Of a stretch of DNA of 64,000 nucleotides, positions 1,223 to 50,282 are shown in pieces. Position numbers and translations under genes: made by a program. Source of the stretch: an uncultured Alphaproteobacteria bacterium (lineage in GTDB: Bacteria > Pseudomonadota > Alphaproteobacteria > Rs-D84); the NCBI GenBank assembly GCA_905233975.1, contig CAJOGD010000004.1, forward strand, positions 124,001 to 188,000, written 5' to 3'. How positions within the stretch are numbered: position 1 is the stretch's first letter; every line of letters starts with the position of its first letter. The notes under the pieces are model-generated. The model was given only the letters and a program-made list of their open reading frames with translations. It was not told where the DNA came from and did not search any database.

Positions 1223-4219
1223 ATGTCGAGAAAGGTTGCTAGTGTTTTGATGGGTGTTTCTTTGATGCAGGCCTTGGCGGTGGCGCCGTCGGTTGCAGAT
1301 ACGATAACCAGTGTTCAGGTTGTTCACGAAGGTCAAATGTTAAGTTTGTCGGACTTGGTTGCAAATTCATTTAATACCGATGCACCAAATGGTGGTGTTA
1401 TCTATAATGCGGGAACGGTGGTTATAAATGGAACATCACAGTTCAATAATAATACTGGGTCGGTGTTTGGTGGCGTTATTGCGAATGAAGAAACGGGAAC
1501 CCTTACCATAAGTAATGTTGGTTTCGGCGGTAACACCGGATCTGTGGGTGCCGCGTTGTATAATTTGGGTGATGCGAATTTCACAGGTGCCGCACTGTTT
1601 GGCAGTAATGTTGCAGAACAATCCGGTGGCGCAATATCAAACGCGGGCGATTTGGTGTTTGGTGGTAATGCGATATTTTCTTCGAACAGTGTGACGAACG
1701 GTGCCGGTGGTGCGATCGCCAATGATGTTGGTGGAACAATTACATTTATGGGGAACGCTGAATTCAGCGGAAACAGCGCAAGTGCCACAGATGTCACAGA
1801 TGGAATTGGTGGTGCGGTGCTGAATAACGGTGTGATAAAGTTTAATGGAAAAACGACCTTTGCCATGAATAAATCACAAAACAACGGAACCGCAATTCAT
1901 AATGGCGCAACAGGTGTGATGAATTTTAATGGTGGGTTAACTTTGTCTAACAATAATATTATTTCTGCGACCGGTGTTGCAACATCAACTGTTGATAACC
2001 AAGGAATAATCAGTGTTATTGGTGGCGATGTCATCGTTAATGGTAATACATCACACGTTGGCGGTGGCATAAACAGTTCTGCGTCGGATGCAAAATTATT
2101 GTTGGGTGCGTACTATGATGACGATGACAATGTTGTGGTATCCAAGATAAATAATATTATCTTTCAAAATAATACGGCACTGGACGGAACGGCGGGCGCT
2201 TTGTATGCCGGCGACGATACGGAATTATATGCGAAAAATATTTTGTTCAATAATAACGACAGCAATCTTGGTGGTCGTGGCGGCGCGATTGCATTACATG
2301 GTGGAACGCTAAAGATTATTGGCGACAGTAATACGTTTACCAATAATGATGCCAATGGCACGACGGACGTTGTTGAAAATCAATTCGAATTTGGTGGCGG
2401 CGCAATTCAGAATATGGGTAATGTCACGATTGGTGGCGTAAATAGTGTTAATAATTTTACTTCGAATACATCGGCGGGTTATGGTGGCGCAATACATGTT
2501 CGTGCGTCGGATGCGTCTGATATAGTGTCAACCATTTTGAATGGTGCGACGTCGTTCGCGTATAATCATGCGGCCCTGCATGGTGGCGCGATTAGTAATT
2601 ATGTCGATGCGGGCCAATCGACATTGACCTTTCATGGCGATACAGTTTTTACAAACAATACCAGTGATGGTTTGGGCGGCGCGATTTATAATACCGGTAC
2701 GTCGAATGGCGTTATTACGTTTGATGGTAATGCGACGTTTTCTGGAAATTCAGACGGCACCGGCGCCAATGATATTTACAATGATGGCACGATAAACTTT
2801 AATGGTAATGTCACGTTGGACGGTGGCATAACAGGTTCGGGAACGCTTGCCCTGGGGAATGGGAAAAGTTTGAACATTGGTAATGCAAGTCTTACGCAAA
2901 GTGTGGTTACAATGAACGGTGGGCGAATTGTTGCGCGACTTGGGAATGTGGCCGATGACTATCGTATCAATGTCGGTATGTTTAATGGCGACGGAATAAT
3001 TGCATTGACGTTGGCGGACGAAGGAACGTACCGGGTGTTTGGTAATTCTGTGTTCGGCGATACTGTGTTCGAAGGCGAAATAACTTTTGATAGTCCGCTT
3101 TATAATCTTATGTGGACGGACGAATTAAAATCTGTGACCGCGTCGCGCAAAACGCCGGATCAGATTGCGGCGAATAATGGCATATCAAATTTGGCGGCCG
3201 GCACAGTTTTGAATCTTATGAATTCTTCATCTGATGTTTTAAATGGTTTGGGTATGGCGGCCCAAGAACGGTTGGCGTTGGGTGATAAATTGTCTGTGGA
3301 AAATGCGGCGCGCGCAATATATCCGGAATTGGACCCTGTGATTCAATCGGTTAGTACGTCGGTGCAAACATCAATTGCGAATTTGGCGGCGGGGCGTATG
3401 GCTTTGTTGCAATCGTCCCTTGGGCGTAGTGGTGGCGACGCGGCCGCGCACAGTGGCGTTTGGGCCGAAGGTATGTATAACAAATCAAAACAAAATGACA
3501 TGTTTAACGGTTATACACGTGGCCTTGTGGCCGGTATGGATACACGTATTGCGCGCGGATTTATGCTGGGCGTGGGATATTCGTATTCGCATTCTGATGT
3601 GGCATCGATTGCGCGTGATATTGAAATCGACAGTAATACGATTTTTGTGTACGGACAATACAAGCCGGCCGCATGGTACGTGAATGCGATGGCGAATTAC
3701 ACTATGTCTGATTACGTGGAAAAATCTGATGCGCTGGGCATTGATGTCCGGTCGGATTTTGATGTCGATGCGATTGGTGCGGTGGTCACGACGGGATACG
3801 ATTTCGCCGCCGGCATTACTCCAGAGTTCGGGTTGCGCTATATGCATATCGGTGCGGAAGAATATAAAAATTCATTGGGTATAAAAAATAAATTGAAAGA
3901 TTCCGATTATCTGACCGCGATGGCGGGCGTCAAATACGCGTTTGATTTTCGCGTGTCGCGCGCGCTGACGTTGCGTCCAGAATTACGGTATGACGTAAAA
4001 TACGATATGTTGTCGGAAAAACATGCCGCGTCTGTTGTGATGCCCGGTGTGCCATCGTATGTGATGGTGGGTGATCGTTTGGCGCCATTCTCGATGGATT
4101 TTGGTGGTGGACTGGTTATGCGGTACCAAGATTTTAGTTTCGCATTTAACTATGATATCGAAGTTCGCGAAGATTATACATCACAAACTGGGCGTGTCCG
4201 CGCAAGAATGGTGTTTTAA
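1223..4219 (+). CDS. Autotransporter / polymorphic outer membrane protein-like adhesin with C-terminal beta-barrel
   Basis: Signal peptide MSRKVASVLMGVSLMQALAVAPSVA; many GGAI and FxxN-type passenger repeats (GGAIYNTG, FSGNS, FTNNT); C-terminal autotransporter barrel (VWAEGMYNKSKQ... GYSYSHSD...) ending in F. Confidence 0.9.
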   Translation: MSRKVASVLMGVSLMQALAVAPSVADTITSVQVVHEGQMLSLSDLVANSFNTDAPNGGVIYNAGTVVINGTSQFNNNTGSVFGGVIANEETGTLTISNVGFGGNTGSVGAALYNLGDANFTGAALFGSNVAEQSGGAISNAGDLVFGGNAIFSSNSVTNGAGGAIANDVGGTITFMGNAEFSGNSASATDVTDGIGGAVLNNGVIKFNGKTTFAMNKSQNNGTAIHNGATGVMNFNGGLTLSNNNIISATGVATSTVDNQGIISVIGGDVIVNGNTSHVGGGINSSASDAKLLLGAYYDDDDNVVVSKINNIIFQNNTALDGTAGALYAGDDTELYAKNILFNNNDSNLGGRGGAIALHGGTLKIIGDSNTFTNNDANGTTDVVENQFEFGGGAIQNMGNVTIGGVNSVNNFTSNTSAGYGGAIHVRASDASDIVSTILNGATSFAYNHAALHGGAISNYVDAGQSTLTFHGDTVFTNNTSDGLGGAIYNTGTSNGVITFDGNATFSGNSDGTGANDIYNDGTINFNGNVTLDGGITGSGTLALGNGKSLNIGNASLTQSVVTMNGGRIVARLGNVADDYRINVGMFNGDGIIALTLADEGTYRVFGNSVFGDTVFEGEITFDSPLYNLMWTDELKSVTASRKTPDQIAANNGISNLAAGTVLNLMNSSSDVLNGLGMAAQERLALGDKLSVENAARAIYPELDPVIQSVSTSVQTSIANLAAGRMALLQSSLGRSGGDAAAHSGVWAEGMYNKSKQNDMFNGYTRGLVAGMDTRIARGFMLGVGYSYSHSDVASIARDIEIDSNTIFVYGQYKPAAWYVNAMANYTMSDYVEKSDALGIDVRSDFDVDAIGAVVTTGYDFAAGITPEFGLRYMHIGAEEYKNSLGIKNKLKDSDYLTAMAGVKYAFDFRVSRALTLRPELRYDVKYDMLSEKHAASVVMPGVPSYVMVGDRLAPFSMDFGGGLVMRYQDFSFAFNYDIEVREDYTSQTGRVRARMVF

Positions 4220-4238: not shown

Positions 4239-4268
4239 TTGACCCGATTTTATAAAATGTGATACCAT
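4239..4268 (+). promoter_or_regulatory. Sigma70-type promoter, TTGACC-N18-TACCAT
   Basis: -35 at 4239-4244, 18-nt spacer, -10 at 4263-4268; same architecture upstream of three paralogues. Confidence 0.6.
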
Positions 4269-4465
4269 AAAACCGAATCAGAAGGGATTCTGAGTTCCGG
4301 GCTGTCGTAAGCCCGCCGGCAATCGGCACATTATGTCGTAATCCACAAAATTTCCGATATTTTGTGCCGTTATTTTGGCATACCCCAATTGTCGGGGTGC
4401 CTATGGAGTATATTTGAAGTCCATGGGAATCATGATTGCTGGTGGTTTACGAACACCCCGACCGT
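4269..4465 (+). ncRNA. Candidate structured 5' leader RNA of the mosaic exported protein gene at 4525
   Basis: Multiple stem-loops; 4324-4373 is identical to the reverse complement of 16240-16289; hairpin arms differ between copies while pairing is largely kept. Confidence 0.6.
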
Positions 4466-4524
4466 CTCTGTCTGATGACGGCGTTCGTTTTTATGGCCTA
4501 TGAAAGAAAAGAAAGGGGAGAAAT

Positions 4525-6030
4525 ATGACTTTGAAAAAGTTTTTGTTGTTCGGATTGTTGGTGGCGGTGTTGCCGGCGGTGGCAGAGGAAGCGGCGGACC
4601 GGAAAACCGCAACATCATTGAAATATGTCGAACATGAACTTGATACGCGTCAAAACAAATTTACCGCGGAACAAAACAAAGCCATGGAATATACCGATTC
4701 GGCCGGAACGGTGCAAAAACGTGCCGTTACATCGAATCTGGGCACCAGTACGACAGATACGTCATTACCCATGGTCGGCGGCGTGAATACTAAACTGGCC
4801 ACGAAACAGGACGACATTGCACCAATCAATGACCACACCGCGGTCACATATACCGGTCAAAGCGGTTCAATCGGTGCTAAGGGTATTTATCAGGACACCG
4901 GCACATACGCCGACCAATCCGACAACCTGATTGATGCAAAAACATTCAACGCGGCATTAAAGAAAGGACTTGATAGCGAATTTCTTTGTTCGGAATACAA
5001 ACCCGGTACAGACCTTTGTTGGGTCTGGTCGATACATAATAACGGCGATAACAATTTGTTCACCACATCTGGTGCAACATTGCATTATTACTATAATGAA
5101 TCTGGTGAGGAAAGACCTAGTGCCGATTTAGCACATACGGATTATATAGCAATTCAACCGACCACAACATATACATATTCTGTCACATGTGTTAGGACAC
5201 TACAAACAAACCACAGGGTTATTGCATGGGACGAAAATAAAAACTTTATAAGCCAAATCGGAAATATCTATTGCGATACGGGTGATGTGGGTCAAAGGCT
5301 TCATAGCACTTTCACAACTACGGCGGCAACAAAGTATATAACGCTGGGTTACGTTTACAATCCCGCGGGTGAAAACCCGAGGTTGGAATTGGGTTCGTTC
5401 GCAACGGAAAGGTCATATACAACCCTTGTGCCGGACGGTTATACTCCATTGGAATATATAATTTCCGATGGCACGCAATACATTAATACGGGAATTGCAC
5501 CAAGCAATACGACGTCGGTTAGTGCCAAGGCGGCGTTATTGAATCTTGCAACGGGACCATCGTTTTTCGGTTCTTTGGCGGGTGGTGCAAATCTATTGGT
5601 TGGAACAAATTCGATGGGTGACGGTAAGATTTACGTAAATGATACAGGAAATGCCACAAGTATTAGAATTACCGCAAATACGGTATATGAAGTTAGTGTC
5701 GCGGGAACAACATTTTCGATAAAGGCGTCCGGCGGTCAAACACAAACGTTAACTGCGCCCGCGGTTACCGGTGGTTCTGGGAACATATATATGATTGGTC
5801 GAAATTATAATGGGTCGGTGCAAAGGCTTGGATCGTTTAATTATTACTATATGAAGATATACAATGACGGTGCGTTGGTCCGCAATTTTATCCCGGCCCA
5901 AGACGCTTCGGGTGTTGTCGGAATGTATGATACGGTCGAAGGGCGGTTCTTTCCAAGTGCGGCGTCCAATACGAACTTTGCCCCGGGACCAGAAATTTCG
6001 AACATTGTCTATGTGCCACAGAATCAATAG
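4525..6030 (+). CDS. Exported mosaic protein, paralogue A (conserved N-module plus LamG/phage-tail-like C-terminus)
   Basis: Signal peptide MTLKKFLLFGLLVAVLPAVA; N-module EEAADRKTATSLKYVEHELDTRQNKF... shared with 14792-15913 and 48993-50162; C-terminal YTPLEYIISDGTQYINTGI...GMYDTVEGRFFPSA...VYVPQNQ. Confidence 0.85.
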   Translation: MTLKKFLLFGLLVAVLPAVAEEAADRKTATSLKYVEHELDTRQNKFTAEQNKAMEYTDSAGTVQKRAVTSNLGTSTTDTSLPMVGGVNTKLATKQDDIAPINDHTAVTYTGQSGSIGAKGIYQDTGTYADQSDNLIDAKTFNAALKKGLDSEFLCSEYKPGTDLCWVWSIHNNGDNNLFTTSGATLHYYYNESGEERPSADLAHTDYIAIQPTTTYTYSVTCVRTLQTNHRVIAWDENKNFISQIGNIYCDTGDVGQRLHSTFTTTAATKYITLGYVYNPAGENPRLELGSFATERSYTTLVPDGYTPLEYIISDGTQYINTGIAPSNTTSVSAKAALLNLATGPSFFGSLAGGANLLVGTNSMGDGKIYVNDTGNATSIRITANTVYEVSVAGTTFSIKASGGQTQTLTAPAVTGGSGNIYMIGRNYNGSVQRLGSFNYYYMKIYNDGALVRNFIPAQDASGVVGMYDTVEGRFFPSAASNTNFAPGPEISNIVYVPQNQ

Positions 6031-6366
6031 TGAGTGTTAGTGTAAGTGGTTAGTGTTAGTGCGGGCGCGTTTGCGCCCGTTTCTACTCTCGTCACCCCGG
6101 CAAAAGCCGGGGTCTTGTCGTTACCGTCGCGGACTAAAACTCCCCTTTCCTTGGGAGAGGGGAGGTTGCTCTCGGTATGCCTGAGGAGATACCGCTTTGC
6201 AGCGGTATGACGGCACTAACACCAAGCCGGGGCAAAGCCCCGGCGCAGTCGCGCCGTAGCGTTTATCACACGAAGTTTTAACGAAGTGTGATAGCAAAGG
6301 CAGATAACCCTTGTCCACCGAAGCCCGCAGGGCGAAGGCGGAACTGACTACTTACACTAACACTAT
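6031..6366. repeat. Composite intergenic repeat region (TTAGTG-type short repeats flanking GC-rich palindromes)
   Basis: gtgttagtgtaagtggttagtgttagtg at the left end, inverted cttacactaacac at the right; inner palindromes ccccggcaaaagccgggg and gccggggcaaagccccggc. Confidence 0.6.
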
Positions 6367-14791: not shown

Positions 14792-15913
14792 TTATTGATT
14801 CTGGGGGATATAGACGTTTTCGTTATATGTTGTTTCGGTCCAATCTTCTTCCGCCGGTGTGGCAAGCGGATACCAAACCGTAACAGGTGTCCCGTTTGCA
14901 TATTGGTCAGCAAGCCATTGTTTCCATTCGGCAACAGTTTTTTCCCCTTCTATACGCATCCATAAAGTATGAGCAGTGTGTGCAGTTGAACCAATAGAAA
15001 AACTGTTAGCTATTTTAGGAGTCGCGATTGCTGAGGACCTAGGCGCCTTAATCAAATAGTTACTTATTCCAATAGCTGGCCCTTCCGACCCCACCGACAA
15101 GTTGTCCTGTATTGCACCGACATTCCAAAAAGTTGTGGCGCCATCCATTACATAGGTAGGGTTTGTTTGTAGGGTCCAACTTTCCGTTCCGTTCAAAACC
15201 TTTACCCCAACGCGTCTTGTTATTTTATGTGTTGTTGCGTCGAATGAATCGGCATAGTCACCGACTTTGCGTAATACCATATCACCCTGGCGATAGAAAA
15301 CGGGATAAATCGGATTCGTTGGTGTTGGTGTGCCGTCTTGGGTGGCGGTACCAGTTGCCGAAATGTAAGGCTGCGCGGATTCTTCGTAAGTATTATGTAT
15401 CGTATAAAGCCAACAAAGATTGGACACCGGATCGCGGTTATCTTCCCTACATACGAATTCGCTATCAAGACCATTCTTTAATGCCGCGTTAAAGGTTTTT
15501 GCATCGATAAGGTTGTCGCTTTGGTCGGTGTATGTGCCGGTTGTTTGATAAATTCCCTTTCGGCCGATACCGCCCGGTTGGCCCGTATATGTGACCGCGG
15601 TGTGGTCGTTAAACGGGTCTATGTCGTCCTGTTTCTGATTTAATTTTGTATTAACACCCCCAACCATGGGCAGTGATGTGTCGGACGTGCTGGACCCCAA
15701 ATCAGATTTGACCGCGCGTTTTTGCACCGTTCCGGCCGAATCGGTGTATTCCATGGCCTTGTTAGTGTCCGCGCCGAATTTGTTTTGACGCGTGTCCAAT
15801 TCGTGCGTCACGTATTTCAACGACGTTGCGGTTTTGCGGTCCGCCGCTTCTTCCGCCACCGCCGGCACCACCGCCACCAACAACCCGAACAACAAAAACT
15901 TTTTCAATTGCAT
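14792..15913 (-). CDS. Exported mosaic protein, paralogue B (conserved N-module plus phage-tail-like middle)
   Basis: MQLKKFLLFGLLVAVVPAVAEEAADRKTATSLKYVTHELDTRQNKF...; middle SAQPYISATGTATQDGTPTPTNPIYPVF; C-terminal NVYIPQNQ. Confidence 0.85.
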   Translation of the reverse strand: MQLKKFLLFGLLVAVVPAVAEEAADRKTATSLKYVTHELDTRQNKFGADTNKAMEYTDSAGTVQKRAVKSDLGSSTSDTSLPMVGGVNTKLNQKQDDIDPFNDHTAVTYTGQPGGIGRKGIYQTTGTYTDQSDNLIDAKTFNAALKNGLDSEFVCREDNRDPVSNLCWLYTIHNTYEESAQPYISATGTATQDGTPTPTNPIYPVFYRQGDMVLRKVGDYADSFDATTHKITRRVGVKVLNGTESWTLQTNPTYVMDGATTFWNVGAIQDNLSVGSEGPAIGISNYLIKAPRSSAIATPKIANSFSIGSTAHTAHTLWMRIEGEKTVAEWKQWLADQYANGTPVTVWYPLATPAEEDWTETTYNENVYIPQNQ

Positions 15914-15940
15914 ATCGCTCTCCTTTTCTTTTTTTCCACG

Positions 15941-16070
15941 TCATACCGCCGAAAGGCGGTATCTCCTCAGGCTTTCCTGAGAATTAACTCTCTGCCGGTC
16001 CGACGGGATTCCGGTTCCTGTCTCGCCGTAGCCTTGGCGTAGGCGGATTCGCCGGAATGACGGCTTTCTA
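15941..16070. repeat. Dispersed palindromic repeat cluster (uninterrupted site)
   Basis: cgtcataccgccgaaaggcggtatctcctcaggctttcctgagaatta... closely matches 50188-50282. Confidence 0.7.
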
Positions 16071-16149
16071 TCCGTCTTCGCTATTGCTCCGTCGCGGTTC
16101 GTTTATTTGCGCACAAATAAACGAAAAACACCGCATGCGAATTTACGGT

Positions 16150-16344
16150 ATCGGGGTGTTAGAACATCATACAAAGTAATGATCCCCATGGACTTCCTAT
16201 ATACTCCATAGGCACCCCGAAGAAACGGGGTATGTCAGGATAACGGCACAAAATATCGGAAATTTTGTGGATTACGACATAATGTGCCGACTTTGTACAA
16301 GGCGTTCTACTGCCCCGAACCAGATTCCCATCTGATTCGGTTTT
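16150..16344 (-). ncRNA. Candidate structured 5' leader RNA, second copy (upstream of paralogue B)
   Basis: Reverse complement contains the 50-nt block identical to 4324-4373 (16240-16289) and near-identical flanks (gtgcctatggagtatat..gaagtccatggg). Confidence 0.6.
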
Positions 16345-16374
16345 ATTCTATCAAAATTTGATGATTTCGGTCAA
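16345..16374 (-). promoter_or_regulatory. Promoter TTGACC-N18-TAGAAT
   Basis: -35 complement of 16369-16374, -10 complement of 16345-16350, 18-nt spacer. Confidence 0.6.
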
Positions 16375-16429
16375 GGAGATATTTGAGTAATAGTGGTTAG
16401 TGTAAGTGGTTAGTGAGGGGCGCGAACAA

Positions 16430-16550
16430 AGACGTCATGCCGCCGCAAGGCGGTATCTAGTGGTTTCAACTGTGACGACGAGACCCCGCGTGAAATCACC
16501 CAACGCTATGCGTTTTTTGTGGGACCCGATACCGCGGGGTGACGTCACTG
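16430..16550. repeat. Dispersed palindromic repeat cluster
   Basis: cgtcatgccgccgcaaggcggtatctagtggtttcaactgtgacgacgagaccccgc...ataccgcggggtgacgtc; half shared with 48916-48972. Confidence 0.6.
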
Positions 16551-44967: not shown

Positions 44968-45591
44968 ATGCGCTTTGGAAAATTAATTATGTTGGGTTTA
45001 AGTTTGGTTGTCGTTGGAACGGCATTCGCAGAAGGTGAGGCGCCGACCGATGCAGAAAGACGAAAAACCGTTACATCAAAGTGGTATGTTGATCAGAAAG
45101 TTGGTGAAAAGCAGGAAGCACTTAGCGGTACGGCCGGCAGTATCGCCGTTTATACCGGCACAGAGGGTTCTTTGACAGAAATAGCGGTATCTGGGCATAT
45201 CGTGGCAACGGGCAGCGAAGTTCAAGACACAATTGATGACTTTTTGCCAACGGTTGGTGCGGTGAATGCCGAATTGAATTTAAGACAAGATAAATTGGGC
45301 GCGGGCAAGACCGCGGGTTATGTTGCGACATATACGTCAACTGATGGTTCCTTGGATCAAAAGGCGGTGTATAATACCTCGAACGCATATGATAGTACGA
45401 ATCAGGCCGCACTGATAGAGGCCGCACATGCGAATTCCGCAATTCAAACAGGATTGGATCGGCATTTGACATGCGATGAGACCAACCAAGGGCCGGGTAA
45501 TACATGCTGGCTGTGGACGGTGAATGATCAGCAGACGACAGATATTTATACAGATTATGGCACCGCTGCTAATTCTAATACTACTAACTAA
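44968..45591 (+). CDS. Exported mosaic-family protein, minimal paralogue D (N-module only)
   Basis: Signal peptide MRFGKLIMLGLSLVVVGTAFA; RRKTVTSKWYVDQKV...FLPTVGAVNAELNLRQDKL...ALIEAAHANSAIQTGLDRHLTCDE...NTCWLWTVND parallels TATSLKYV...LPMVGGVNTKLNTKQDDI...FNAALKTGLDNEFRCAE...DICWVYSIHN. Confidence 0.75.
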   Translation: MRFGKLIMLGLSLVVVGTAFAEGEAPTDAERRKTVTSKWYVDQKVGEKQEALSGTAGSIAVYTGTEGSLTEIAVSGHIVATGSEVQDTIDDFLPTVGAVNAELNLRQDKLGAGKTAGYVATYTSTDGSLDQKAVYNTSNAYDSTNQAALIEAAHANSAIQTGLDRHLTCDETNQGPGNTCWLWTVNDQQTTDIYTDYGTAANSNTTN

Positions 45592-48992: not shown

Positions 48993-50162
48993 TTATTGCC
49001 CCTGGGGAATATAGACATTCAATTCCGGGCCGGCGATAAAGTTTGTACCACTTACCGCGCTTGGGAAGAATCTTTGTCTGACAGTGTCGTACATGCCAAC
49101 AGTTGTGCCATGTTGCGCGGGTATAAGTTTGGCCTCAAGCGTTCCGTTTGTGCGTATTTCTACACCGTAACACCGACCTTGGAATTGCGCTGTGCTTGTG
49201 ACACCACCTGTTTTTGCATAATTTGTAAATAATAGTAGACTTCTATCCGATTGAAACGGTGTCCATAAGGACCTGTCTAGTGTGAATATTTGTTGATTGT
49301 CTATAAATACATCCCCAGATATATATCTTACTGTGTGTCGGGTTAGGTATTGTGCTTGGGTAAGTGATGTAAGTGCGCCGTATTCTAGTTCGTTTGTATC
49401 GTCAAACTGTAGCCATATTTTGTTTGAGCTTGATGATATAAATTGCAGAGAGTATTTGTGATATGGGGTGCCTGATGAATTGTAGTCGCGTGACCCAAAC
49501 AGCCATTTAAGACCAGATATATTAGATTGAAAATCTATAACAGTGTCAGTTAAGTTGGAAACTTTTATTCCCGTATCAATATACTGTGTCCCGTCGGATT
49601 CAATCCACTCTAATGCCGTATATTCGGCCGGGGAAACATTACCGACGTTATTATGTATCGAATAGACCCAACAAATGTCGGTTCCGGGTTTAGTTTCCGC
49701 ACATCTGAATTCATTATCAAGTCCGGTTTTAAGTGCGGCGTTAAAAGTTTTTGCATCGATTAAATTATCCGATTGTTCCGCGAACGATTCGGTTGCCTGA
49801 TAAATTCCTTTTTGCCCGATTTCGCCCGATTCCCCGGTATATGTGACCGCGGTATGGTCGTTAACCGGGCCGATGTCGTCCTGTTTTGTATTAAGTTTCG
49901 TATTCACGCCGCCAACCATGGGCAACGAATCGGTCCCACCGTTATCCAGGTCCGATGTGACGGCACGTTTTTCCACCACGCCGGCCGAATTGGTGTATTC
50001 CATGGCTTTGTTTGCTTCGGCACCAAACTTATCCTGACGCGTATCAAGTTCGTGTGTGACATACTTTAACGATGTCGCAGTTTTGCGGTCCGCGGCTTCT
50101 TCGGCCACCGCCGGCAACACCGCCGCAATCAGTCCAAACAACAAAAACTTTTTCAAAAACAT
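48993..50162 (-). CDS. Exported mosaic protein, paralogue C (LamG/phage-like C-terminus)
   Basis: MFLKKFLLFGLIAAVLPAVAEEAADRKTATSLKYVTHELDTRQDKF...; YTALEWIESDGTQYIDTGI...GMYDTVRQRFFPSAVSGTNFIAGPELNVYIPQGQ. Confidence 0.85.
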   Translation of the reverse strand: MFLKKFLLFGLIAAVLPAVAEEAADRKTATSLKYVTHELDTRQDKFGAEANKAMEYTNSAGVVEKRAVTSDLDNGGTDSLPMVGGVNTKLNTKQDDIGPVNDHTAVTYTGESGEIGQKGIYQATESFAEQSDNLIDAKTFNAALKTGLDNEFRCAETKPGTDICWVYSIHNNVGNVSPAEYTALEWIESDGTQYIDTGIKVSNLTDTVIDFQSNISGLKWLFGSRDYNSSGTPYHKYSLQFISSSSNKIWLQFDDTNELEYGALTSLTQAQYLTRHTVRYISGDVFIDNQQIFTLDRSLWTPFQSDRSLLLFTNYAKTGGVTSTAQFQGRCYGVEIRTNGTLEAKLIPAQHGTTVGMYDTVRQRFFPSAVSGTNFIAGPELNVYIPQGQ

Positions 50163-50187: not shown

Positions 50188-50282
50188 CGTCATACCGCCG
50201 AAAGGCGGTATCTCCTCAGGCTTTCCTGAGAATTAGTCCGCGACGGTTCCGACGGGATTCCGGCTTTCGCCGGAATGACGGT
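50188..50282. repeat. Dispersed palindromic repeat (uninterrupted site)
   Basis: cgtcataccgccgaaaggcggtatctcctcaggctttcctgagaatta...gacgggattccggctttcgccggaatgacgg, close match to 15949-16070. Confidence 0.7.

Follow-up and report, generated by a model that had tools for sequence, protein, structure and literature searches.

Exchangeable heads on a constant export scaffold: a probable ligand-binding repertoire in an uncultured alphaproteobacterium

Three long proteins encoded in the 64,000-nucleotide stretch of DNA analysed here (the window), from an uncultured alphaproteobacterium, have a signal peptide and 171–174 aa in common (76–83% identity) and are divergent afterwards (Table 1). The question raised by this locus is why proteins that begin alike should differ so sharply in what follows, and what the differing parts do. 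The initial annotation, which had correctly recognized the common N-terminal module (N-module) and the sharp divergence after it, proposed a fixed export module with an exchangeable domain and a common tail, in a family of four. The first mosaic copy starts at position 4525, with 4239–4524 being intergenic. Just upstream, at 1223–4219 of the window, a 998-aa protein is encoded that has a signal-peptide-like start, Gly/Asn-rich repeats and, as judged by eye, an autotransporter-like C-terminal region.

Table 1. Mosaic genes and their parts in the window, with retroelement loci and head slots elsewhere
Feature	Location	Strand	Remarks
Mosaic copy 1	4525..6030	+	501 aa; signal peptide + N-module, heads C + A, tail
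Copy 1 signal peptide + N-module	4525-5040	+	
Copy 1 class C head	about 5041-5421	+	
Copy 1 class A head	about 5422-6006	+	
Copy 1 tail	6007-6027	+	VYVPQNQ
Mosaic copy 2	14792..15913	-	373 aa
Copy 2 signal peptide + N-module	15392-15913	-	
Copy 2 class B head	14816-15391	-	
Copy 2 tail	14795-14815	-	VYIPQNQ
Mosaic copy 3	48993..50162	-	389 aa
Copy 3 signal peptide + N-module	49650-50162	-	
Copy 3 class A head	49017-49649	-	LamG/pentraxin/CBM40-like predicted fold
Copy 3 tail	48996-49016	-	VYIPQGQ
Headless short relative	44968..45591	+	207 aa; signal peptide + N-module-like region, degenerate tail
Complete DGR cassette (target, TR, accessory ORF, RT)	L109:7748-10631 (G097)		Slot of mosaic copy C1:19819 here
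Own-genome DGR: template repeat, accessory ORF, RT	G000:C4:1-2020		Outside window; RT C4:980-2020, template C4:239-370
Own-genome variable repeat in LONG paralogue	C8:52853-52984		Outside window
Slots with different contents in relatives	C4:259250 (G125, G168), C6:79467 (G095), C4:248997 (G131), C6:71959 (G133)		
Further slots with different contents	C7:65212, C3:16144 and C1:19819		C1:19819: short + long pair instead

Architecture of the mosaic family

A search of the whole assembly (1,038,472 bases in 11 contigs; a draft of 94.8% completeness) gave 72 matches to the N-module, and the open reading frames extracted from those places comprise 48 complete mosaic genes, 3 frameshifted copies and about 10 pieces at contig ends. 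The similarity is beyond chance (N-module E-values to 1e-114), as the proposal of a family implied, but four members is an undercount, because most copies lie outside the window. The complete genes total 56.7 kb, or 5.5% of the assembly. About half of the 22 contig ends, as counted from match coordinates, fall inside a family copy; since draft assemblies break at family genes, the repertoires of the clade are underestimated.

A signal peptide, an N-module of ~172 aa and a tail are present in all 48 complete copies, each of which is an intact ORF with a start codon and a purine-rich stretch upstream of the start. The N-module contains two homologous repeats of ~50 residues (hhalign, 97.3%) and ends in a Cys-containing stretch, C...CW.Y.IHN. 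Among the complete copies it is 71–94% identical at the protein level, while its DNA identity has a median of 79% (62% at four-fold sites), so the copies are not fresh duplicates. The tail has the form [VIL]Y[VI][PL]Q[NGDE]Q in 48 of 48, and because its synonymous codons vary and its residues are constant, selection on it acts on the protein.

From the end of the N-module to the end of the protein, tail counted in, there are 139–400 residues. When assigned to head classes by motif and length, the 48 copies comprise 20 with class A, 12 with class B and 7 with class C heads, together with 9 long forms (about 320–400 residues), which are mostly a C-like joined to an A head; one of these, C5_7064, has two A heads. 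Head matches among copies have a median identity of 33%, and class B heads show a conserved frame around a central stretch that is variable in both sequence and length.

The fourth protein of the window is about 33–35% identical to the mosaic N-modules, in keeping with its description as a minimal relative. The common tail noted initially is present in the three long proteins; the short protein ends in IYTDYGTAANSNTTN, a degenerate version in which the exact tag is not kept. Related species encode short proteins in which the N-module is directly joined to the tail, with no head, and which end in ...CLLWNVNTLSGTYMPQNQ, ...GTYVPQNQ or ...GTIYTPHNN. Judged from the sequences, a mosaic protein looks like a short one into which a domain has been inserted ahead of the tail, and such an insertion would account for a tail that is constant although the variable part precedes it. 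Being conserved at the protein level and present in the headless short relatives, the tail belongs with the scaffold, where it may act in sorting or assembly, as suggested initially, in anchoring, or in completing a fold, perhaps as the last strand of the N-module.

The full proteins did not match one known family from end to end, which would have spoken against the modular reading: searches of Pfam, NCBIfam, PADLOC and PDB sequences gave no significant match, whether with the window proteins or with the scaffold. A PHROGs search gave sub-threshold hits only, Pfam at E<=1 returned nothing for the four window proteins but two chance hits of P0003, and a search of the open-access literature found no description of the family. 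The mosaic proteins may reside in the periplasm or be secreted; as the structure prediction of the N-module has pLDDT <50 for residues 1–137, no membrane anchor or oligomer could be recognized. For a pilus-like system, one of the functions suggested initially, no evidence was found.

Recombination within the genome and head exchange between species

Codons 1–90 of the N-module carry almost no information on head class, and the association rises toward the junction. A Mantel test finds no correlation between head similarity and N-module similarity; the exception is class B, close to the junction (rho 0.51, p 0.003). Gene conversion among the paralogues is indicated by 21 in-register identity tracts above a global 5% permutation threshold, in a test that can be inflated by site-rate variation; most of these tracts join copies of different head classes. 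Misassembly is an unlikely source of the mosaics: no exact stretch common to two complete copies exceeds 100 bp, the longest being 94 bp, and this speaks against chimeric assembly.

Short palindromic intergenic repeats (GATACCGC...GCGGTATGACG) and repeats of the GTTAGTGTAAGTG type are frequent beside family copies (in the window at 15939-16528, 50188-50219, 6188-6204 and other places). Considered as a possible dispersal device, they are enriched there relative to random window segments, a difference to which intergenic bias may contribute.

The consensus N-module matched at E<=1e-5 in 17 of 156 congeners (own genome counted), mostly members of the genome's own subclade by the identity of one flanking gene (about 60–84%). 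In a profile search, about 20 species within the genus gave a multi-copy signal, and other genera of the order gave single or double weak matches only. A patchy distribution was ruled out, as strong multi-copy matches are almost all in the own subclade; the exception, G094, was not placed by the marker. As one genome per species was compared, these data follow heads between species, and switching within a species would go unseen.

Family copies in the relatives adjoin the same genes as here and thus occupy conserved slots. Slots were identified from neighbouring genes in the stretches retrieved, and several relatives are cut by contig ends, so the number of slots is a lower bound; among 13 compared, a clearly matching head is kept in 1. 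Comparison of the loci across related genomes therefore bears out the proposed fixed export module with an exchangeable domain: heads are swapped, and an orthologous slot usually holds a different one. At C1:32604, where this genome has a B head, G095, G125 and G105 each have a different C head, G133 has an A head and G116 has a fragment; the slot is empty in G103, G073, G097, G077, G118, G141 and the outgroups. At C4:204773, this genome and G105 have different A heads; that of G105 is 71% identical to C3:59222 of this genome, and the slot of C3:59222 contains a C+A protein in G105. The head at C5:36792 is kept in G105 (58%) but not in G114, and at C4:41644 a B head is present in each of the two species (about 47% identity).

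Heads that are 62–71% identical occur between species whose N-modules are only 30–58% identical. In the module tree, whose bootstrap values are unsettled, the 48 copies of this genome group as a single clade (100/100); the seven G095 copies likewise group together, and so do six G105 mosaics, whereas the copies of G114 and G125 intermix. N-modules group largely by species, and head lineages cross species. Conserved slots and species-wise scaffolds together indicate concerted evolution, although repeated independent insertion at the same slots may have produced them instead. A TrbI/VirB10-like type IV secretion gene lies near a family slot in G133 (L112:83-2548), and its orthologue in the window genome is at L050:4105-5487.

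Phage-contig relatives of the heads and a retroelement on a long paralogue

The heads are homologous to phage-contig proteins, as phage adhesion modules should be. Alignments of the class A and class B heads matched 27 and 15 IMG/VR contigs, respectively, and the N-module search of IMG/VR found no contig. At E<=1e-6, viral-collection contigs match 44 of the 48 heads, and some of these contigs have phage hallmark genes: terminase, portal and head-morphogenesis genes on L139, and major head, major tail and tape-measure genes on L151. The head of C1_182694 is 51% identical over 185 aa to an L139 protein adjoining the portal gene. On L151 the head-bearing protein directly follows the tape-measure gene and is Dit-like by eye; it matched no PHROG or Pfam family. 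Two head-bearing viral-contig proteins have an S74 chaperone domain, as in tail fibres; a Laminin_G_3 match was found in one viral-contig protein. A tblastn search against GenBank phages gave one 39-aa match for P0002 and none for P0001. An L139 protein (L139:4693-6576) has both A and B heads and is encoded between the portal and head-morphogenesis genes, not among tail genes.

The model of the class A head, which is confident in parts, is a beta-sandwich like those of LamG, pentraxin and CBM40 (TMt to about 0.6), and reaches a TMt of up to 0.72 against viral protein structures. The heads appear to be lectin-type modules such as phage proteins carry, and are presumably glycan-binding. In siphophages, 'evolved Dit' and other tail proteins have carbohydrate-binding modules inserted in loops (PMC7291167). 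Heads A, B and C resemble these in being homologous to phage-contig modules and inserted into a carrier, but the mosaic carrier is a bacterial Sec-exported scaffold whose N-module matched no viral contig directly. The sole, weak viral-collection match to the N-module is on L170 (IMGVR_UViG_2802429671_000001), a 13-kb contig, possibly bacterial or prophage, that encodes a 319-aa protein with a signal peptide, a module-like start and a class A head.

A second source of variation is a diversity-generating retroelement (DGR). The relative G097 has a short and a long gene followed by a 132-nt template repeat (TR), a 110-aa ORF and a reverse transcriptase (RT; PF00078, 2e-11), and the 3' end of the long gene differs from the template at 15 positions, all of them template adenines (15/15). 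In the own genome, the 132-nt variable repeat (VR) of the LONG paralogue, which contains the N-module according to a profile search, has 13 of 13 mismatches at template adenines. Here and in G097, the LONG paralogue is thus accompanied by the RT, TR and VR of a DGR, with mismatches at TR adenines. In the own genome, the C8 LONG gene is the only match of the TR apart from the TR itself, and the mosaic copies lack a VR. Mosaic heads were ruled out as DGR targets, given the lack of any other TR match in the genome and their differing lengths.

Of 156 congeners, 42 have RTs of the same kind, and many of these lack the mosaic family. Exported proteins encoded close to the RT in G168 and G122 are without the N-module, that of G168 having a repeat-like variable stretch at its end. 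The joining of the scaffold to a DGR target thus appears to have taken place in the own subclade. Cellular DGR targets mostly have a signal peptide or TM segment together with binding domains (PMC8144416). The LONG paralogue is like the DGR variable proteins of Bordetella phage (Mtd), Treponema and Legionella (PMC8144416) in its adenine-only TR/VR substitutions, RT and accessory ORF, whereas the ~50 mosaic copies, not being DGR targets, are unlike them.

Proposed function and alternative readings

We consider it reasonably likely that the mosaic proteins are a Sec-exported, probably surface-located ligand-binding (adhesin-type) repertoire diversified by recombination. A constant scaffold (signal peptide, two ~50-residue repeats, Cys-containing end and Y[VI]PQNQ tag) would hold a head inserted before the tag. 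Homologous recombination between dispersed full-length copies would homogenize the scaffolds and re-assort the heads, which would also be exchanged with related species and probably with phages; on one paralogue the same scaffold would carry a variable domain rewritten by the DGR (mutagenic retrohoming). We infer surface display, glycan binding, adhesion and the identity of the partner, the adhesion from the fold, the homology to phage proteins and the usual role of DGR targets. More tentatively, the family may be an undescribed class of bacterial display system in which heads from the phage adhesion-module pool are repeatedly placed on one exported scaffold in conserved chromosomal slots and swapped within and between species, with a DGR hypermutating another head on that scaffold, making two diversity engines of one surface-recognition organ.

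Polymorphic toxins and CDI-type proteins have a constant trafficking N-terminal part and an exchangeable C-terminal module. The mosaic family shares this plan, but its heads are predicted to be lectin-type, a constant tail follows the head, and there is no recurrent neighbour gene. Another parallel is an antigenic-variation family like Anaplasma p44/msp2, which would serve evasion of host immunity or predator recognition, with ligand binding secondary. The Msp2/P44 proteins of Anaplasma phagocytophilum (PF01617) likewise come from an alphaproteobacterium with a small genome and many dispersed paralogues that have conserved ends and a variable middle and undergo gene conversion. We nevertheless think such a role unlikely here, since the mosaic family is not homologous to PF01617 by Pfam scan, all its complete copies are intact, with their own start codon, signal peptide and purine-rich upstream stretch, and do not look like silent donors, and no single expression site was seen in the sequence. 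Moreover, its variable part appears to consist of exchangeable whole lectin-type domains of three kinds, with phage-contig relatives and orthologous slots across species, not of drifting loops.

Homology to phage-contig proteins and strong diversification would also suit anti-phage decoys or receptor masks, in which exported phage-like heads would cover the surface glycans of the producing cell or serve as bait for phages. This is improbable given that no PADLOC model match was found, that several head-bearing phage proteins (Dit-like, S74-chaperone) are on contigs resembling phages of other hosts, and that a DGR target, typically a binding protein, is carried on the scaffold too. It is just as doubtful that the proteins bind polysaccharides for nutrient capture (plant fibre or mucin) and not for cell attachment: enzymes or transporters were not seen as recurrent neighbours of the copies, and the exchange of heads across species, like diversification by a DGR, points to variable ligands, even if the LamG/CBM40-like fold of the class A head and the origin of the nearest named relative, an alphaproteobacterial MAG from buffalo rumen, are consistent with such a function.

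If the family is a ligand-binding repertoire, as we favour, a ~1 Mb genome would spend at least 5.5% on one recognition family, and its lifestyle would be directly testable via head binding; candidates are attachment to other microbes, protists, host or fibre. The family would be a natural case of adhesion modules common to phage proteins and bacterial surface-type proteins, on an export scaffold that doubles as carrier of a DGR variable protein, and its orthologous slots allow head swapping to be followed across species. As a lead only, ciliate-associated rumen fractions are enriched in undefined alphaproteobacteria (PMC6217230).
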